A DNA stretch of 64,000 nt from Pilasporangium apinafurcum (taxonomy: Eukaryota > Oomycota > Peronosporomycetes > Pythiales > Pythiaceae). Both the position numbers and the translations under genes were made by a program. Under the pieces are notes generated by a model. It had not been told where the DNA came from and ran no database searches. It was given only the letters and a program-made list of their open reading frames with translations. Positions 22,337 to 33,948 of the stretch are shown here, piece by piece; positions within the stretch are counted from its first letter, which is position 1, and each line of letters opens with the position of its first letter. The stretch lies in NCBI GenBank assembly GCA_001600495.1, contig BCKE01000047.1:226499-290498 (forward strand), in the 5' to 3' direction.

Positions 22337-23560
22337 CTAAGCATGCTTTGGTTCAGCGGCCAGTGCTCGCTCCAGATCCGCTATGATGTCTGGTAGACCT
22401 TCAATACCGACGGACAATCGGATCAAATTATCCGTAATACCAACCAGTTCACGATGCTCCTTTGGCACTGATGCGTGCGTCATGATGGCAGGCGACTCGG
22501 CAAGCGACTCTACGGCGCCAAGGCTTTCCGCAAGCGTGAAGATCTCGACTGTTTCCAGGAATGCACGCGCCTTCTCCAGTCCGCCCTTAATGTAGAACGT
22601 GATCATACCACCAAAGCCCGAGGCCTGCTTCTTGGCGATGGCATGTTGTGGGTGCGACGCCAGACCTGGGTAGTACACCTTCTCTACGTTCGGATGCGCT
22701 TCCAAGTACTCTGCCACAGCTTGTGCATTCTTGGCGTGCGCGGCCATGCGGATGTGCAGCGTCTTAAGCCCACGCAGCGCCATGTACGCATCAAAGGGAG
22801 AAGGCACCGCACCAATCCCGTTCTGCACGAAACGCAGCTTGGTATTGATGTCTTCGCTGTTGGTGATGGCCACACCCATGACCACGTCACTGTGACCATT
22901 GATGTACTTGGTGATGCTGTGGATGACAATGTCTGCTCCAAGATCCAGCGGATTCTGGAAGTACGGCGACATGAACGTATTGTCTACCACAAGCAGCAGG
23001 TTGTGTTTCTTTGTAATGGCTGCTACTGCGGCAATGTCCGTAACCTTCAACGTTGGATTCGTGGGGCTCTCGATCCATACCATCTTGGTTTGCGGGCGAA
23101 TATACGCCTCAATCTTGGATGGGTCGGTCATGTCCACAAAATCAAAATTGATACCGTAGGTTGGATTCACCGTTTGGCGAAAGTAGCGCTGCGTGCCGCC
23201 ATAGACATCGTCGATGCTGATGACGTGGTCACCCTGCTTCAACAAGTGCACGGCCGCTGTGGTGGCAGCCATCCCAGACGAATACGCGACGGCAAACTTG
23301 CCATGCTCGCAAGCAGCGATGGCGCGTTCAAAGGCACCGCGAGTGGGGTTGCCCGTACGCGAGTACTCCCAGCCTTTGCCAAAGCTGTTAGGCTGATCCT
23401 TGCCGTAGACTACACCTGGCGAAGCCTGTGCAAAGGTGCTGGCAAGACTGATAGGGACCGCGACGGCACCGGTGTGTGCGTCTGGGTGTTGTCCGGCGTG
23501 GATGGCAGTGGTGCCGAAGCCGCGGTGTTCGTCGGTGTACTGTTCTCGGATGGTGCTCAT
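22337..23560 (-). CDS. Cystathionine gamma-lyase (PLP-dependent trans-sulfuration enzyme)
   Basis: Intronless 407-aa Cys/Met-metabolism PLP enzyme, full length for the family (~390-405 aa). It would cleave cystathionine to cysteine, 2-oxobutyrate and ammonia in the cytosol. Visible motifs: YSRTGNPTR at 67-75 (PLP phosphate and substrate contacts), VDNTFMSPY around 192-200 with the PLP-ring Asp, and SITKYINGHSDVVMG with the Schiff-base lysine at 218. The C-terminus has SLGAVESLAESPAIMTHAS then IRLSVGIEGLPDIIADL. Cystathionine gamma-synthase is closely related; the sequence favours lyase, but substrate cannot be settled by eye. GC-rich and clean; no sign of transfer that I can see. Confidence 0.9.
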   Translation of the reverse strand: MSTIREQYTDEHRGFGTTAIHAGQHPDAHTGAVAVPISLASTFAQASPGVVYGKDQPNSFGKGWEYSRTGNPTRGAFERAIAACEHGKFAVAYSSGMAATTAAVHLLKQGDHVISIDDVYGGTQRYFRQTVNPTYGINFDFVDMTDPSKIEAYIRPQTKMVWIESPTNPTLKVTDIAAVAAITKKHNLLLVVDNTFMSPYFQNPLDLGADIVIHSITKYINGHSDVVMGVAITNSEDINTKLRFVQNGIGAVPSPFDAYMALRGLKTLHIRMAAHAKNAQAVAEYLEAHPNVEKVYYPGLASHPQHAIAKKQASGFGGMITFYIKGGLEKARAFLETVEIFTLAESLGAVESLAESPAIMTHASVPKEHRELVGITDNLIRLSVGIEGLPDIIADLERALAAEPKHA

Positions 23561-23844: not shown

Positions 23845-24975
23845 CTACATGCCCTTACCTGGATAATAGTATTCGTAAAAGAGATCCATGAGTGGAGGCT
23901 TGATGTAGTGGAAACTAATCGAGTCCGGTGCACAGCAGTCTTTGCCATTTTTCCATCCTATCCCGACATGGTCTGAAAACCAATTGTTTTCATCGTAGAT
24001 GGATTTGAAGACACTGTGATCGTATGCTGTCTCATCATACGGTTTAAAAAACAGGTCATTCGGGTCGTACTGGTGGAATCGTTCGCGTTGCTGTGCGTCG
24101 CGCGTATCGCGTGGAAAGACGCCGTGGTAGTACATGCAAAAGGAGATGGCCCAGTCATCCGGCACCACCTCAGTGGGCAAACAGTAGCTTTCGTCAAACG
24201 ATGCCTCTAGGAGCTTCAAATAGGCCCAATTTAATACATAGCCACCGCCGCCCGGTGTGTAGATCAGTCCGCCCTTGGCTTTCGTTTCGGCCTTGATCTT
24301 GAACATTTGTTGCAGCTGATCAGGATCGTGTTCATCATAAGGGTTAAATGGGCGTTCCATTTCCCACCTGCATATCGATGAAACAAGGCAAATAGTAAGC
24401 ATCGTGCTCATAACACAGTTAGGTCAGAATCATTACCATTGCAATGTCATTCGGTGCCCAAGCAGCGTTGGTTCGGATGTTGGAATCGCCTTGATTTCTG
24501 GTGAGAGCAAATATTTCTTCAAATTTTCCATTATCAAAAACGTGTCGTCATCGCATTTAAACACCCAGTCAAACTCATCTTCGCCATACTCTCGAAGAAT
24601 GAGCCGCACAATCTCGCGGTGTTTCTGCCATAATGTTTCATGTAACGGCGGGGCCATAATCCGAACGGTGGGGATATCCACGTCCTCCACGTCACTCATG
24701 AAAAGAATTTTGTCGCACTTCTTCCCCCAGGTATTTTTGATGGAAAGGATGCGGTCCGCGTGATTCTTGTGGTATGTGTTCACCCAACAGAGCACACGCA
24801 CGCTGTCCATTTCCTCCTGAGTAATCGGCTGTACTTGTACCAGATTCATCGCATGGACGTTTGTGCCTAGCCTCTCCAGTAGATCGCCCTCTCGCGCGTC
24901 AAATGCTTGGACGCCATCCTTCCTCCATCCCGCCAGGGTGCACACAAGCAGCCCCACACGCAATAGCAATCCCAT
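23845..24975 (-). CDS. Core-1 beta-1,3-galactosyltransferase-like (GT31 / C1GALT1 family)
   Basis: Two exons, 24437-24975 and 23845-24367, totalling 1062 nt (353 aa). The N-terminus MGLLLRVGLLVCTLAG is a signal peptide or short signal anchor, pointing to the secretory pathway. Family motifs: RVLCWVNTYHKNHADRI, IKNTWGKKCDKILFMSD, DWVFKCDDDTFLIMENL (the DDD metal/nucleotide-sugar motif), and GGGGYVLNWAYLKLL followed by VPDDWAISFCM. The C-terminal half has several Cys and a DSISFHYIKP segment as in C1GALT1. GT31 enzymes use UDP-sugar; acceptor specificity in this organism is unknown. Start ATG 24975 is used because the codon at 24981 is TTG. Confidence 0.85.
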
Positions 24976-25227
24976 TTCCAAACCTCCAAATACGTCACAC
25001 TTTTGAAGGACATAAAATAACTCATGGTTTACCTACTAATTACTTGTCTAAGTACTGTTTTAACTAAATTTTAGACGAAAAACGAACGCAAAACAAATGT
25101 AAAAAAACGCTACGATCTGGCACGTTTAACCTTTATTCCGCACGTGTTTTGTACCATGCATGATACAATGAGAAAATAGTTACACTCATCTGTTTCCAAA
25201 ATCATAGCAATGAGGACTTTTATCACC

Positions 25228-26142
25228 TCAGTTTTTGATTTCGAGTACCAATTCATTCTTTTTCCTCGTGAACACCTCGAGTCTCTTCTTTTTCTTCACT
25301 TGGTCGATGAATAGTCTCAAAATGTTGATTGCAGTGTTGATGTCACGGTTCCACAATGTGNGATGACATTCACTATTTTTGCAGTGTCNCACACCATAAA
25401 GACCGTCACTGACAATTTTTCCGTCAAGGACAAACCCCTTCATCTTCTTATGACAAGCACAACACANCNTGCTCGTCCTGAACTCGTCCACATCAACAAC
25501 ACNACACCTGGAACCAATTTTCTTCNGTAGNNTCGTTGTNGGAACAGCAATGTTGCCTTTAGCTGAGCTTGTGAAACTTGTATCTCCATACGCGATAACG
25601 GTTCGTTTATCTCCACCTGTAAGGTTCTTGACTACCTTCTCGTACGTCTGTTGTCGACGGATGTAGGTCGACCATCGTAGCTTCTTCATCTTCTTTGATG
25701 AATACACATCAAGAAGACGATCCAAGTGCAGGAAACAAAATCTCACCCGTTCCAAATAGGAGATAAGGTCTGGAACTTTTGCCGAAGGAACGTTTTCATT
25801 GAAGGTTTTGATGTCAGGCTCAGTATCAATCCACTCTTTNGTCAACTTTGTTCGTCTATGGTAGCCGCACTCTCTGTAGAAATGGCCCTTAGACCAGTGG
25901 ATGACTTCATGTTTCACGTTTTCTCCTTTCGGCTTTTGCAGCGTAGCCATGCTTTCTTCTTTGTAGACAACAGCAGTAAAGATCTTCTTTCTTCCCGGGT
26001 CCAAACCGATGATCCGGTCTTCAAGAGAAAATGTCTCTTTTTTCTCTCTCGCGGGAAGCTTTGGATGGGAAATCGCCACACCAACTGACATATCGTCGGT
26101 CGAGATGAAGTGCTCAAGCTCCTTTCGCTGAACTTTGGTCAC
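25228..26142 (-). CDS. Fanzor-type (eukaryotic TnpB-like) nuclease, C-terminal nuclease half
   Basis: 304-codon open frame with RuvC and zinc-ribbon features of Fanzor proteins, the eukaryotic RNA-guided TnpB relatives. RIIGLDPGRKK (Asp48) is RuvC-I. RTVIAYGDTSF has Asp187 where TnpB has its RuvC-II region. VVDVDEFRTS holds Glu220, the position I recall as the rearranged RuvC-II glutamate of Fanzor1 proteins. CCAC (227-230) with HCKNSEC (253-259) forms the zinc ribbon. TLWNRDINTAINIL supplies RuvC-III Asp267. So all three acidic positions and the ribbon cysteines are present. Ten N bases (25361-25840) give ambiguous residues only inside this frame. The first codon is GTG and the frame continues upstream to a TGA at 26167-26169, so this is the C-terminal part of a longer protein. 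Not seen: accompanying transposase or element ends. Confidence 0.8.
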   Translation of the reverse strand: MTKVQRKELEHFISTDDMSVGVAISHPKLPAREKKETFSLEDRIIGLDPGRKKIFTAVVYKEESMATLQKPKGENVKHEVIHWSKGHFYRECGYHRRTKLXKEWIDTEPDIKTFNENVPSAKVPDLISYLERVRFCFLHLDRLLDVYSSKKMKKLRWSTYIRRQQTYEKVVKNLTGGDKRTVIAYGDTSFTSSAKGNIAVXTTXLXKKIGSRCXVVDVDEFRTSXXCCACHKKMKGFVLDGKIVSDGLYGVXHCKNSECHXTLWNRDINTAINILRLFIDQVKKKKRLEVFTRKKNELVLEIKN

Positions 26143-26621
26143 AAGACCTATATTGAAGTACGTGCATCATAACTCAGCTTTGGCGGCATAAAGCTCAACA
26201 GGGTCACCCAAAGCCTTAGCAAGTTCCTTCAGGACGGTGGAGTTGATCTTGATGAAAATGGGTTTGAACTATTTCTGTGGAAGCAGAGAGCAGACTCGGC
26301 AACCTTCATTCCATCATCCATGTGAGCTTGTATGTCTATCAGCATTGTGTGGAGAAAGGGCATGTGACGTTCTGGTGATTTGTTCAAGTCGAGTGGCAGC
26401 GGTCCGATCTCGTTTCTCACTCTATCCGATAATTCCTGCATCCAAACAATATTCTCAGTAGGGATGGGATACTTCTTGAACCTGAAGTACGCAGGCATCA
26501 GGTTGGATAAGCTATCCTGAGTTTGGGTGCTTGCACAGACCAGCAGTGAAATAGCACTCTTGATTATCTTGCCTTGGTGCTTTTCAAAATAGTCACTGTC
26601 ATGAACGAGAGTTGCAAGCAT
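26143..26621 (-). pseudogene. N-terminal half of the same Fanzor-like gene, out of frame
   Basis: Upstream of the nuclease half. The frame that continues from it reads KINSTVLKELAKALGDPVEL (about 26200-26265) and is separated from it by one TGA (26167-26169). Further upstream, coding character shifts to another frame: 26229-26621 encodes LMPAYFRFKKYPIPTENIVW and further helical, charged sequence. One frameshift near 26275 plus one nonsense codon would therefore separate a once continuous protein of roughly 440-450 aa. An intron at the shift cannot be excluded (CTTCCACAG lies there), and sequence error is possible given the N bases nearby. Role as the N-terminal wedge/REC-like part is inference from position. 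Confidence 0.55.
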
Positions 26622-27064
26622 AGTGTGAGAAGGTAGGTTCCAGAAGCGCGCATTTGGTCAGAACACTGTTAACGGTTCAAAAAAGATCGAGACCTCTGGA
26701 CCATCAAGTTAAATTGATAGAAGGAATGCTCAGCAATAAGAATGCATAGCTGTTTACAAATGGATAATCAGTAGGTAGTTAAAACCAGAAACACGATCAC
26801 TTTCCAATTGCCTACCTACCTTACGATCTCCACACGTCAATATCGTCAGAACTACTTGTCGCCCTGCAGAAAATGAAATAGTGGAAGAATCCTCAGAATC
26901 TACTCTTTTATGCCAAGTGGAGTGATCGTTGCTAAATCCAGTAGAAACAAACTTACACTGTAAAAGAGGATGCACTTCATATAGTACAACTCTACTTCCA
27001 CTAGTACACTTGAGGAAAAAAGGCTAAACTCCAAAGTCAATAATACCGGAATTAGTGTATCCAC
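26622..27064. other. Intergenic region, nothing recognised
   Basis: Between the Fanzor-like gene and the divergent RGS/DENN gene. A 73-codon frame at 26754-26975 shows no recognisable domain. Probably holds the promoter of the gene at 27065 and possibly the left end of the Fanzor-carrying element, which I could not delimit. Confidence 0.35.
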
Positions 27065-30000
27065 ATGGCTCACCCGCATGCAGCAGATGTAGCAGATGAG
27101 CTACTCGTCTGTGTGACGCTGGAAGATGTGGCGAAGGACGCGATGCGGCGGCAGATCTTTCTCTCCGCATTCGGCGATGAGCAAGAGACGCTGCAGCTTT
27201 CCTTTTCGTTCCTCAACCATGTCCACAGGTATAAGCAGCTTACCGGACAGAAGGAGCTGCTTCTCAACAGTGTACAACCATTGTGTCTAGACTTGTCATG
27301 GTGCAATTGCTAGAATCGCTTCGTGTATCTTATGTCTTTTATGTTAATACAGGCGCGTGACATCGTTTTGACGTATTTACGTGACTCATCTGCCCAGCTT
27401 TGTGTACATCTGCAGACGACACCAATGCAGCAATTGTTGCACCGCATCCATGTGGTACTAGACGCCGGGACAGCGCCGTTGGATCTCTTCTGTGGTATCG
27501 AGGAGCATGTCAAGGGCTGCCTGGCGAACGAGAAATTCCCGCTTTTCCTCCGCAGTCCACAATACCAGGAGCTCTGTGATGCTATTCGCAACCACCGCGA
27601 TCTACCACTGGGGGAGATTTTGGTCGATCATCGACGCACAGATTTTTTAGAACGATTCTTGCAACAGAGCGACCCAATGGCCGTTGGTAATCTGCGCTTC
27701 TGGGTGGACGTCCAGACAACATTTTTACCGCTCATCCAGACGAATCTCTTCTCGGTGGCGCTTTTTGAAGAGATTCACACCACGGTACGAAAAATTTTCA
27801 ACGTCTATCTCACGGAAAGCTCCAGCACCTTCGCGACACGCATCTCTGAGGCAATCCGCAAAGAAACACTGCAGAAGATCCTACAATTGCAGGGTGAGCC
27901 GTTCTCACCACCACGCTATGCGAATCTCTTTCGCGCTGCACAGGACGCCGTATGGCGATGGCTACAGAACGACGTCTACACGCGGTTCAAGGCCTCGCCG
28001 TTCTATGTATTGCTGGTCGTGGAGATCGAAAACCTGGAGTCCGACCACCGCTTGCGACGCTTAAGTGAGCATGTGCAGAGAGAGAAGACACATCCAACTA
28101 AGTCCAGTGCCATTGTCATTCCAATCCACACGAAAGAGCAACAGCAAAAAGCAACAGCAATGTGTAATATTGGCGAAGTTCAGCAATTTAAGCGCACAAT
28201 CGCACTAGAAGAGCTCAAGATGCACCAAGTAGAAAGCATTGCTGTCTATTCCGTCGTATGCAGCGCTGCTAGCACAACCACAATGAGCTATGACTTTTTT
28301 TGTGGAAAAGAATCGGCAACGTCTAACTGTCACATGACGTATCTGGTACGGATGTGCTAAGACACTTTGATTGTGATATCGCAAACGTGTAACTCATAGT
28401 ATGCGCTTTTATAGGACTACTGTTGGAACAAGCAATCAATCTTCACATCTCCTGCTATGTTTTCACCCTCTCAAAGATCTCAACAACCAAGTACGTCCGT
28501 CGTTGCCCTACTTTTCGTTAATAATTTAACCGTTATTCTTCGATTCGTAGCACCAAAGTCTGTCCTACATGACTTTGTCTTACCGAACGGAAAGGAGCAC
28601 CTATACGGGGTTTGTTTAACCGTCTGGTATCAGATCGACGTGTGCAATGATCCCACGCTCAGTGGTCTATGTAATGACGACACGAACTACGCGACGAATG
28701 CAGCATCCATTCGGTGGTTGCCGCGGTTTCTCTTAGTGACTTCTCATGCACCAATTCATACTAAAGGCAGATTTCTGCTGCAACAGTTGATGTCTGATCC
28801 TCTGGTACTCCTTAGGTACAAGCGATGGAGGCAAATTGCTTGATAGTAACTCACGTTCATTCCAATGTGATAATAGGATTCCATGACGGGCGAACGGATA
28901 CTCGAAATTCTTGAGTCAATACCCTGCAATATGTCGCCACATCCGACCATTCTTCAAGCGCAATACGCAGGATTTTATCTGCAGAGTTGCCTGGATTGCG
29001 TTGATATGCCATTACATTGGATTGCTAAACTTTTGAGCACACAGGTTTGTACATTTATATCTTCGTCATCTAAGTAATAACTTATCATTACCACTAATCA
29101 TACTTCTGTAGACAATTGTTAGTCTTGTGGCTTTGCTCCTTGCAGAAAAGTCGCTGATTCTAGTATCACAACGCCCAACAGCGCTCGTTGTGGTCGGCGA
29201 GGCATTAAAGGAACTCTTGCGACCGTTTCAATGGCAGGTAAACAGTCTGTAAGCATCACACTGACGGATTGCATGTTCATTTGTATCCTGTCTACCTATT
29301 ATAGCACTTTTATCTCCCGTTTTGCCCCATCGGTATTGCTGCTGAGCTATCAAAGCAGCAGTTTTTTTCGACTACGTTACCGTTTATCATTGGCTTTGAA
29401 GAAACTCTTGTCCCACAAAAGCAGAAAGACTCGGGAACCGACCAGCGTTATCGAATCAGTGGGTATTTGTACACATCCTTAAGGCTGCTGTATGAATAAC
29501 GTCTCTTATTATCGCTATTTGATGTGTCAACAGGGAATAGCTTATATAACGTGCATAAAGTCCCTTTGCAGCTTCAGTTGCCTCCTTTGGGTCCTCACTT
29601 TGAGGTGAGTGGTTCGACTTCGTCCTATCCACCCGAGATTTTGCAGACATCTGCTATAATTCTGGACATCGATGCTGATGATATCTACGTCCCAAATGGG
29701 GTTGAAGTTCCGGAGTTACCACGTACATCTGGCTCTGTAGCTGTTATTGGATCAATCCATTTCCCTTAAACGTTTTGTTTGTGCTCTATAGACTCAGTTG
29801 TACGAGTATTTGAAGGCGTATTGAAGAAAGCATTACTGCATCCTGAAATTACAAATGCAGATTCGCATTTGTTCAACACGGAGAAAGGCTCCACTCTTCT
29901 GGATCAAATGCTGCTAACAGTAATACCAAGAAACAGCCAACATTCCGCGACGGGCTGGCCCTTCGATATTGGCGTGCGACTGGCACTACTCTGGTTCTTG

Positions 30001-32673: not shown

Positions 32674-33288
32674 GTGAGTTTGCTACCAAGCCACGACATT
32701 GATTTCAGTCGAAAGAGATGGCCAAGTATAGATCCTTTGCCAAAGTTAGAGAGATATTTGGTATCCATCCTGAAACCATTAGAGGATGAGAACTTCCAGA
32801 TTTGGTTAACGCCAGAGCTATCTCAAGCAGTAGCGGGCACAGAATGTGGTTGTGAGATCTTGAATCGATTGGGACAAGGAATGGATATCATCTCATCCTT
32901 GTTGGACAACTACCATGAAGTCCTTCTTCCAACTTTTGGTACATCAGAGCTGACGTCCAAGCAAAAAAGGATATCAAGCAAGGTACCAAGAAAAATGATC
33001 GCATGGTCTCATTATAAGTTCAAGAAGCTACTTAGTTACAAAATGGAAAGATCAGGCGGATGCGTGATCGACTGTGGGGAGCATTATACAACAAAGCCTT
33101 ATTCTCAGTATGGGAGAATCAACCACACGATCGAGCACCAGAATATCTTTCAGCACCCTCACTGTAAGCTCGTTTTCGATAGGGATGTCAATGCTGCGAG
33201 GGACATCTTTCTGAAGAATGAACACCTACTCTCCTGGACTCATCGACTCCAGATGTCGGAGACGCCTACTCTGCAGTGTTTAGTCTAA
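32674..33288 (+). pseudogene. Fanzor/TnpB-like remnant, second family, copy 1 (C-terminal part)
   Basis: The frame from about 32900 reads LLDNYHEVLLPTFGTSEL, KVPRKMIAWSHYKFKKLL, then DCGEHYTTKPYSQYGRINH and CKLVFDRDVNAARDIFLKN. This is the TnpB/Fanzor C-terminus: RuvC-II E-x-Y-T-T/S-K, zinc ribbon, RuvC-III DRD-x-NAAR. The ribbon is broken: the C-x-x-C after TTK is PYSQY, and the first Cys of the second pair is His (HPHC). No RuvC-I GIDPG motif was found upstream, and the frame begins without an ATG, so it is truncated. It differs from the family at 25.2 kb (different ribbon and RuvC-II context) but matches the copy at 40.8-41.1 kb closely. Confidence 0.75.
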
Positions 33289-33599: not shown

Positions 33600-33948
33600 A
33601 ACGTATGAGATTCCATTTTGTCCGTCTGGCCAAACCTGTCATACTGACTAGAAAACCTGACAAACGAATTACCTCGAAATCTTATTTTCAGTATAACCAA
33701 CTGTAAGTGTCTCTTTGCAACCAGTATGGGAAATCTTTTTACTGGTATGTCATTCGACAATTCATCACCAAATGGTCAACGGCGTTCCCGATGGCACAAT
33801 TGAATTTCGATCCGTTTTGCACAGTGAAAGCAAGACGTTTTGGAATCGCGACGTGAACGCTTCGCTGAATATTATGCGCGTGACGACAGAACTTTTCAAC
33901 AATCGAGCAAGACCAGAGTACTTGCAACGAGAATCAAGTGAGTCGTAG
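33600..33948 (+). pseudogene. Fanzor-type remnant, first family (C-terminal zinc ribbon and RuvC-III)
   Basis: Two frames: the first ends ..KRITSKSYFQYNQL before a TAA at 33704; the second (33715-33948) carries KTFWNRDVNASLNIMRVTTE. Together they correspond to the EFRTS..C..C ... LWNRDINTAINIL order seen at 25.2 kb, with both first-pair cysteines now Tyr, a nonsense codon and a frameshift. It ends RARPEYLQR..., like the basic tail of the 25.2 kb protein. Clearly inactive. Confidence 0.65.

Follow-up and report, generated by a model that had tools for sequence, protein, structure and literature searches.

Fanzor1 genes in oomycetes, TA-inserting elements and elements that encode only a Fanzor are already published (PMC3627910; PMC10432273). 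In Pythium ultimum, the Fanzor1 families PUl-1 and PUl-4 reside in Tc/mariner elements with Mariner ends and TA duplications (PMC3627910, Bao & Jurka 2013). For Spizellomyces punctatus, 42 Fz loci and 134 ghosts were reported (PMC10432273). The published Fanzor signature consists of a glutamate six residues ahead of the zinc finger and DPG at RuvC-I (PMC10711439). Fanzor1 guide RNAs span the terminal repeat and the duplication and continue for about 15 nt past it (PMC10711439, PMC10432273). TTAAN is the TAM of GtFz1 (PMC10432273); one sentence of PMC11423790 swaps the TAMs of GtFz1 and SpuFz1, and another passage of that paper, together with PMC10432273, gives TTAA for GtFz1. The benefit that Fanzors bring to their elements is named as an open question in the Discussion of PMC10432273. 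In the literature on Fanzors in oomycetes or with inverted repeats, judged by titles and the openings of abstracts, the family presented here was not described.

The window, the whole 64,000-nucleotide stretch of Pilasporangium apinafurcum DNA analysed here, carries one member of this family. Its features are given below in window coordinates; copy types and alignment A2 are described further on.

25129..27024, minus strand: Fanzor1-carrying element, A-type, 1,896 bp, from the 5' tip at 27024 to the 3' tip at 25129 (copy comparison and tip sequence)
27025..27026, no strand: TA, target-site duplication next to the 5' tip (sequence; comparison of element ends)
26606..27024, minus strand: A-type 5' region up to the 5' tip, replacing the B-type N-terminal coding part and 5' end (B-type matching ends at 26597-26605)
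26229..26621, minus strand: upstream Fanzor1 frame, 130 aa (a stop and a frameshift intervene before the C-terminal frame)
25228..26142, minus strand: C-terminal Fanzor1 frame, RuvC-I to end, 304 aa (frame translation, profile and protein matches)
25999..26001, minus strand: RuvC-I aspartate D48 of GLDPG (invariant alignment column; aligned with SpuFz1 DPN)
25483..25485, minus strand: alternative RuvC-II glutamate E220 of DEFRTS (invariant column; aligned with SpuFz1 DEYKTS)
25366..25464, minus strand: zinc ribbon C227, C230, C254, C259 (translation; PF07282 and SpuFz1 matches)
25342..25344, minus strand: RuvC-III aspartate D267 of WNRD (aligned with SpuFz1 WNRD; at least 90% in alignment A2)
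25183..25240, minus strand: 3' untranslated stretch and frame end with short predicted stems, putative part of the guide-RNA scaffold
25127..25182, minus strand: 3' terminal palindrome, decayed here; predicted last guide-RNA stem (end comparison; covariation in other copies)
25127..25128, no strand: TA, target-site duplication next to the 3' tip (sequence; both tips flanked by TA in 18 of 19 rows)
25108..25126, minus strand: flanking DNA just outside the 3' tip and TA, putative guide of the window copy (analogy with PMC10432273 and PMC10711439)

The C-terminal frame retains the three RuvC acidic positions and the zinc ribbon that an earlier note had read in it: D48, E220, D267 and the cysteines all lie in frame, and the C4 ribbon (C227/C230, C254/C259) is followed by NRD. 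Several X residues of the translation correspond to ambiguous bases (n). E220 stands six residues ahead of C227 (E-x6-C), and the displaced RuvC-II glutamate suspected in DEFRTS matches the definition in PMC10711439. RuvC-I reads DPG in the window copy, DLG in copy L007 and DSG in copy L013. The family's TDG motif of the WED domain reads TDD in the window copy and TDR in L007, and is present in L013 and most relatives.

Taken singly, the window frame scored below the curated cut-offs of both profiles used, PF07282 (E 2.2e-5, 25.0 bits against a cut-off of 26.3 bits) and NF040570 (E 1.9e-5, 24.1 bits against 100 bits). With phmmer it matched SpuFz1 (8gkh; E 3.1e-5) and, weakly, GtFz1 (E 0.25). 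It is 63% identical to the metagenome protein P0003 across 304 residues. Despite the sub-cut-off scores, the likeness of the copy to Fanzor1 exceeds chance by these comparisons, because the SpuFz1 match and the identity to P0003 are joined by the 133 matches in the genome and by matches of the family profile to solved Fanzor1s. For this profile, a protein search was carried out with the A-type frame of L013 (P0001), and 4,698 candidates were reduced to 21 proteins. These include P0003 (69% identical to P0001, 378 aa), P0004 (40%, 680 aa) and P0008 (32%, Trebouxia). Alignment A2 contains 20 rows, the open 404-aa frame of L007 as lead and 19 of the 21 proteins, P0011 and P0019 being omitted. In A2 the RuvC-I aspartate and DEFRT, including the RuvC-II glutamate, are invariant, the RuvC-III aspartate is conserved in at least 90%, and in DPG the D and G are invariant and P reaches at least 90%. 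The family triad aligned with DPN, DEYKTS and WNRD of SpuFz1. Searched against PDB sequences, the A2 profile found SpuFz1 (E 2.9e-48), PpFz1 (1.7e-41) and GtFz1 (6.3e-32), and at E 0.01 no match beyond these three solved Fanzor1s, neither a TnpB nor a Fanzor2. The earlier assignment to a Fanzor-type gene is supported by these matches; the profile match expected for it was obtained with the family profile and not, above the cut-offs, with the single copy. Since the published glutamate and DPG signature is present and the A2 profile finds only solved Fanzor1s, the window gene is, by homology and motifs, a Fanzor1 pseudogene. The oomycete-like character of the genome, also proposed earlier, agrees with one neighbouring gene, a cystathionine gamma-lyase at 22337-23560, for which identity is 90% with Pythium insidiosum, 88% with Lagenidium giganteum and 78% with Albugo laibachii. 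Judged by this single gene the host is Pythium/Lagenidium-like, and Albugo was set aside for its lower identity.

The genome searched comprises 36.5 Mb in 136 contigs. The window frame has at least 133 protein matches in it, itself included (130 of 582 first-look candidates scored; a single copy may account for two matches). Their identity to it ranges over 63-93%, leaving aside the frame itself and a few weak pieces. Comparison of loci L009-L038, L009 being the window copy, and of later loci revealed three architectures, A-, B- and C-type, which have the 3' part in common. The window copy is A-type, with its 5' limit at about 27024-27028. C-type copies share sequence up to 26812-26818. B-type copies share it up to 26597-26605, then continue into a longer N-terminal coding part, and measure about 2.48 kb in total. 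For the N-terminal frame of B-type (P0002, 284 aa), at least 138 genome matches were obtained (137 of 284 candidates scored), and by eye the 130-aa frame at 26229..26621 resembles the end of P0002. The upstream half of the gene, which had been taken as present, is therein only partly found: the 130-aa frame indeed lies past a stop and a frameshift, and about the first 175 residues of the whole half are replaced in A-type. The element is a decayed copy in which these roughly 175 N-terminal residues are missing.

Decay extends to the other copies examined. None of 30 distinct copies (29 other loci and the window copy) has an uninterrupted full-length frame, and the active paralogue that the earlier note had thought quite possible was not encountered among these family members. 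The longest motif-bearing frame among the 29 other copies is that of the A-type copy L013 (493 aa). Among the P0002 matches listed, 12 span residue 1 to at least 268 without a stop; 11 of the 12 have a listed C-terminal match adjoining, and by eye a stop, truncation or frame change intervenes in all of them. An intact full-length copy may exist elsewhere in the genome, because these long N-terminal matches were compared by eye and among the matches listed.

An intact 3' end of the element forms a palindrome some 64 bp long (TA-R-CCTTTATTCCCC... with its complement). The B-type 5' end is a similar palindrome with a different centre, the outer arm of which is often shortened. A 17-base tip sequence has 142 exact matches in the genome (reversed control, 0). 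When as many as 3 mismatches are allowed, a 25-base motif of the 3' end occurs 222 times (none in the control). Ends were compared in 24 rows. Five were dropped where the fuzzy A pattern met the palindrome backwards or its inner arm (L057 twice, L058, L060, L066), and the 19 rows kept represent 18 elements, L016 having two 5' tips and L036 the least clear 5' tip. Of the 19 kept rows, 18 have TA flanking both tips, 16 have TTTA ahead of the 5' tip and 16 have TAA past the 3' tip. In the loci examined, Fanzor1 is carried by a eukaryotic non-IS607 element with inverted ends and TA insertion. Insertion in TTAA-like sequence and tips that start with CC after TTA(A/G) could also suggest a piggyBac-type element with TTAA duplications. 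Against this, the fourth base, A or G, belongs to the palindrome, and none of the 24 rows has a target-site duplication of 3 bp or more, which makes such an element most improbable.

A transposase with the ends of the family was not found in the loci examined, by PF01498 search and in the neighbourhoods of tips. PF01498 gave 19 genome matches. Five Tc1-like copies were inspected (L046, L048, L051, L052, L053); they begin with TACAG, unlike the family ends, and on these five copies a Tc1/mariner partner was rejected. The Tc1 copy in L053 adjoins a stretch common to the 5' region of the family, which we read as a chance insertion. Beside one family tip on contig C11 (L072:805 to L076) lies a 715-aa frame that resembles a tyrosine recombinase and by eye is Crypton-like. 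It occurs in six near-identical copies in the genome and has no convincing Pfam match. Four of the five other copies (two on C1, one each on C7 and C12) have no exact tip adjoining, exact tips being the only ones considered; the fifth (C124) lies beyond the 100 tips listed of the 142, and the 3' side of the C11 copy is an assembly gap. With listed copies elsewhere lacking an exact tip, this recombinase is disfavoured as a partner but may still be one.

Our preferred reading, to which we assign a probability of roughly 0.78, is that the window gene is a dead Fanzor1 copy in a non-autonomous, cut-and-paste, TA-inserting element, that guided cutting of donor sites took place in master copies and that the transposase acted in trans. 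While the masters were active, their Fanzor1 probably associated with a guide RNA composed of the frame end, the short stems and the terminal palindrome, with flanking host DNA as the guide sequence of that RNA. A transposase supplied in trans would have moved the element by cut-and-paste at TA. After excision, the Fanzor1 RNP would cut the resealed empty donor site at a TTTA- or TTAA-like motif, and repair from the sister copy would then restore the element at the donor site. A cut site of this kind fits because the GtFz1 TAM, TTAAN, resembles the TTTA..TAA insertion context.

If the Fanzor protein served the element in this way, its sequence would be expected to bear on the choice between this reading and one in which the frames are passengers without benefit to a TA-inserting element that owes its copy number to the transposase alone. 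Across 30 copies of the 304-codon frame, mean dN was 0.074 and dS 0.152, a ratio of 0.489 (bootstrap 0.401-0.588). Strong constraint cannot be read from this raw value, which is only modestly below the 0.653 (sd 0.053, 15 runs) obtained by simulating neutral change under the observed mutation spectrum. The other two frames gave 0.756 and 0.677. At codon positions 1, 2 and 3, singleton variants numbered 79, 89 and 82. Variants in 2-3 copies (60, 42, 51) and in 4-7 copies (22, 34, 33) showed no third-position excess, and those in at least 8 copies numbered 8, 7 and 18. Third positions accounted for 18 of 33 of these commonest variants versus 82 of 250 singletons (Fisher p 0.019, uncorrected and with classes of our own choosing). 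Because the commonest variants favour third positions and the in-frame ratio is the lowest of the three, the protein of the masters was probably constrained, and present copies drift. Both effects are modest. The nearly flat distribution of all variants present in two or more copies (96, 86, 105) is what passengers would leave, as are the many copies without RuvC-I or the N-terminus and the absence of a whole copy among 30. On balance we hold the passenger explanation to be rather unlikely.

Selection was also considered for a recurrent deletion form, in which about residue 208-216 is joined to the RuvC-II region. Of the 138 P0002 matches, 53 stop at residue 213-217, reflecting a common internal deletion that removes RuvC-I, and in 15 of the 53 the matched stretch is free of stops. 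Locus L061 has an open frame of 333 aa, and across 12 such derivatives dN/dS was 0.474 (bootstrap 0.393-0.561), no higher than in the full form. These findings could be explained by a nuclease-dead regulator that is retained because it has a function. However, variants private to the derivatives lack a third-position excess (singletons 32, 27, 27 and 14, 14, 9; shared variants 7, 3, 7 and 5, 1, 3), small as these numbers are, and 11 of the 12 derivatives carry a stop or indel relative to L061. Selection on the deleted form was rejected on the missing private excess, even though full and deleted forms are equal in dN/dS, and a retained regulator appears very improbable.

The preferred reading, guided cutting of donor sites by master copies, assigns a role to the 3' end, and this region was examined for signs of pairing. 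For covariation, 16 distinct whole 74-base 3' palindromes were used out of 39 found (37 distinct); copies with indels were omitted, which favours pairing. In these, 95.2% of cells pair, and 13 both-side changes were counted versus 5.8 in shuffles, none of 500 shuffles being as high. Selection on an RNA hairpin, selection on a DNA hairpin and hairpin repair could each have maintained the complementarity of the arms. Upstream of the palindrome, in stems that we chose ourselves, 96.6% of cells were paired in 23 of 30 copies, the rest being without a clean 103-base alignment. Both-side changes numbered 5 versus 2.2 in shuffles (11 of 500 as high), and further pair types were no more frequent than in shuffles (227 of 500). 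The covariation of these stems is suggestive, not strong. An unconstrained consensus fold kept two upstream stems and added another further upstream. In the less decayed copy L031, the fold of the 3' end is far superior to that of shuffles (z -8.97), largely via the palindrome. That of the window copy, which is decayed, is no better than shuffles (z -0.59), and in Rfam the stretch 24900-27200 had only two matches, both below threshold. By analogy with the described systems, we infer that a guide RNA would arise from the 3' end of the element, and the flank at 25108-25126 would then be the guide of the window copy.

Fanzor-like genes are not confined to this family. A first look with PF07282 gave 852 loose candidates in the genome; the 150 that were scored lie at 47.8-82.4 bits, higher than the window family. 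L081 (G000:C32:112900-114420) represents a second group; 506 residues were read of a reported 724-aa frame with ambiguous bases inside. It carries HTH_OrfB_IS605, DPG, E-x6-CxxC and a CxxC...CxxC ribbon, and among solved proteins it is closest to the TnpB-like L79 (E 7.7e-12), a mimivirus Fanzor2. Because of these marks, the L081 family appears Fanzor2-like. At least 117 matches to it occur in the genome, of which many are fragmentary (85 of 576 candidates scored). Several stop-free frames of about 500-800 aa were seen in this family, some lengths probably being inflated by N runs.

Further fragments were noticed in the window and beside family members. At 32674-33288 (plus strand) lies a second Fanzor/TnpB-type fragment (PF07282, E 1.3e-13, 51.3 bits) with ribbon cysteines changed to tyrosine; its 37% identity to L081 over 133 columns marks a diverged relative, not a close copy. 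A short frame at 33715-33948 (plus strand), ending WNRDVNASLNIMR...RPEYLQR, has no Pfam match and resembles the C-terminal end of P0003 at 32% identity (E 8e-11 in a single comparison); by this similarity it is the end of a further Fanzor1-like gene. Beside a B-type copy, L040:1053-2283 (minus strand) is another Fanzor-like gene, split over two frames that match HTH_OrfB_IS605 and PF07282. Its N-terminal half has at least 158 genome matches (150 of 458 candidates scored) and, beyond the HTH, little likeness to L081. The 5' flank of an A-type copy, L021:3390-3665 (plus strand), contains a 276-bp repeat. An empty site sought via this repeat was not found, the repeat adjoining many PF07282 copies; inspection by eye put 14 of its occurrences no more than about 2.2 kb from a PF07282 match, and it may be the 5' region of that family.

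A bolder view would treat the ends as a dispersed guide-RNA library, in which at least 222 guide-flanked ends, with no working protein where examined, were served in trans by a few intact Fanzor1s, with the Fanzor2-like system in parallel. A few intact copies would then keep the whole element population at its sites, and the palindromic 3' end would double as transposase site and guide-RNA stem. We regard this as distinctly unlikely. The window copy itself is ordinary. The genome around it, with hundreds of possible guide-bearing ends, decayed proteins and a second family with open frames, offers a natural setting in which guides acting in trans can be tested, and suits the question of whether empty donor sites are refilled.

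Among the described systems, the family shares several traits with Spu-1: elements that carry only a Fanzor, inverted repeats, a putative guide-RNA region from the stop codon to the 3' repeat, numerous copies with ends preserved and the protein lost (ghost loci), and a transposase not found (PMC10432273). For Spu-1, expression and cleavage were demonstrated (PMC10432273); unlike in Spu-1, the copies examined here are decayed and the ends are long palindromes (at the 5' end in B-type only). With PUl-1 and PUl-4 it has in common the oomycete host, Fanzor1 and TA duplications, and those elements, too, may encode the Fanzor only (PMC3627910). PUl-1 and PUl-4 are said to have ends identical to Mariner; in contrast, no such Mariner was found in the loci examined here and the Tc1 copies inspected end differently, a comparison made with the published description of the ends (PMC3627910). 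GtFz1 is likewise a Fanzor1, and its TAM TTAA resembles the insertion context seen here (PMC10432273, PMC11423790). Unlike GtFz1, which is reported without inverted repeats and with Asn as the third member of the triad, the family described here has inverted ends and Asp at this position (PMC10432273, PMC11423790).
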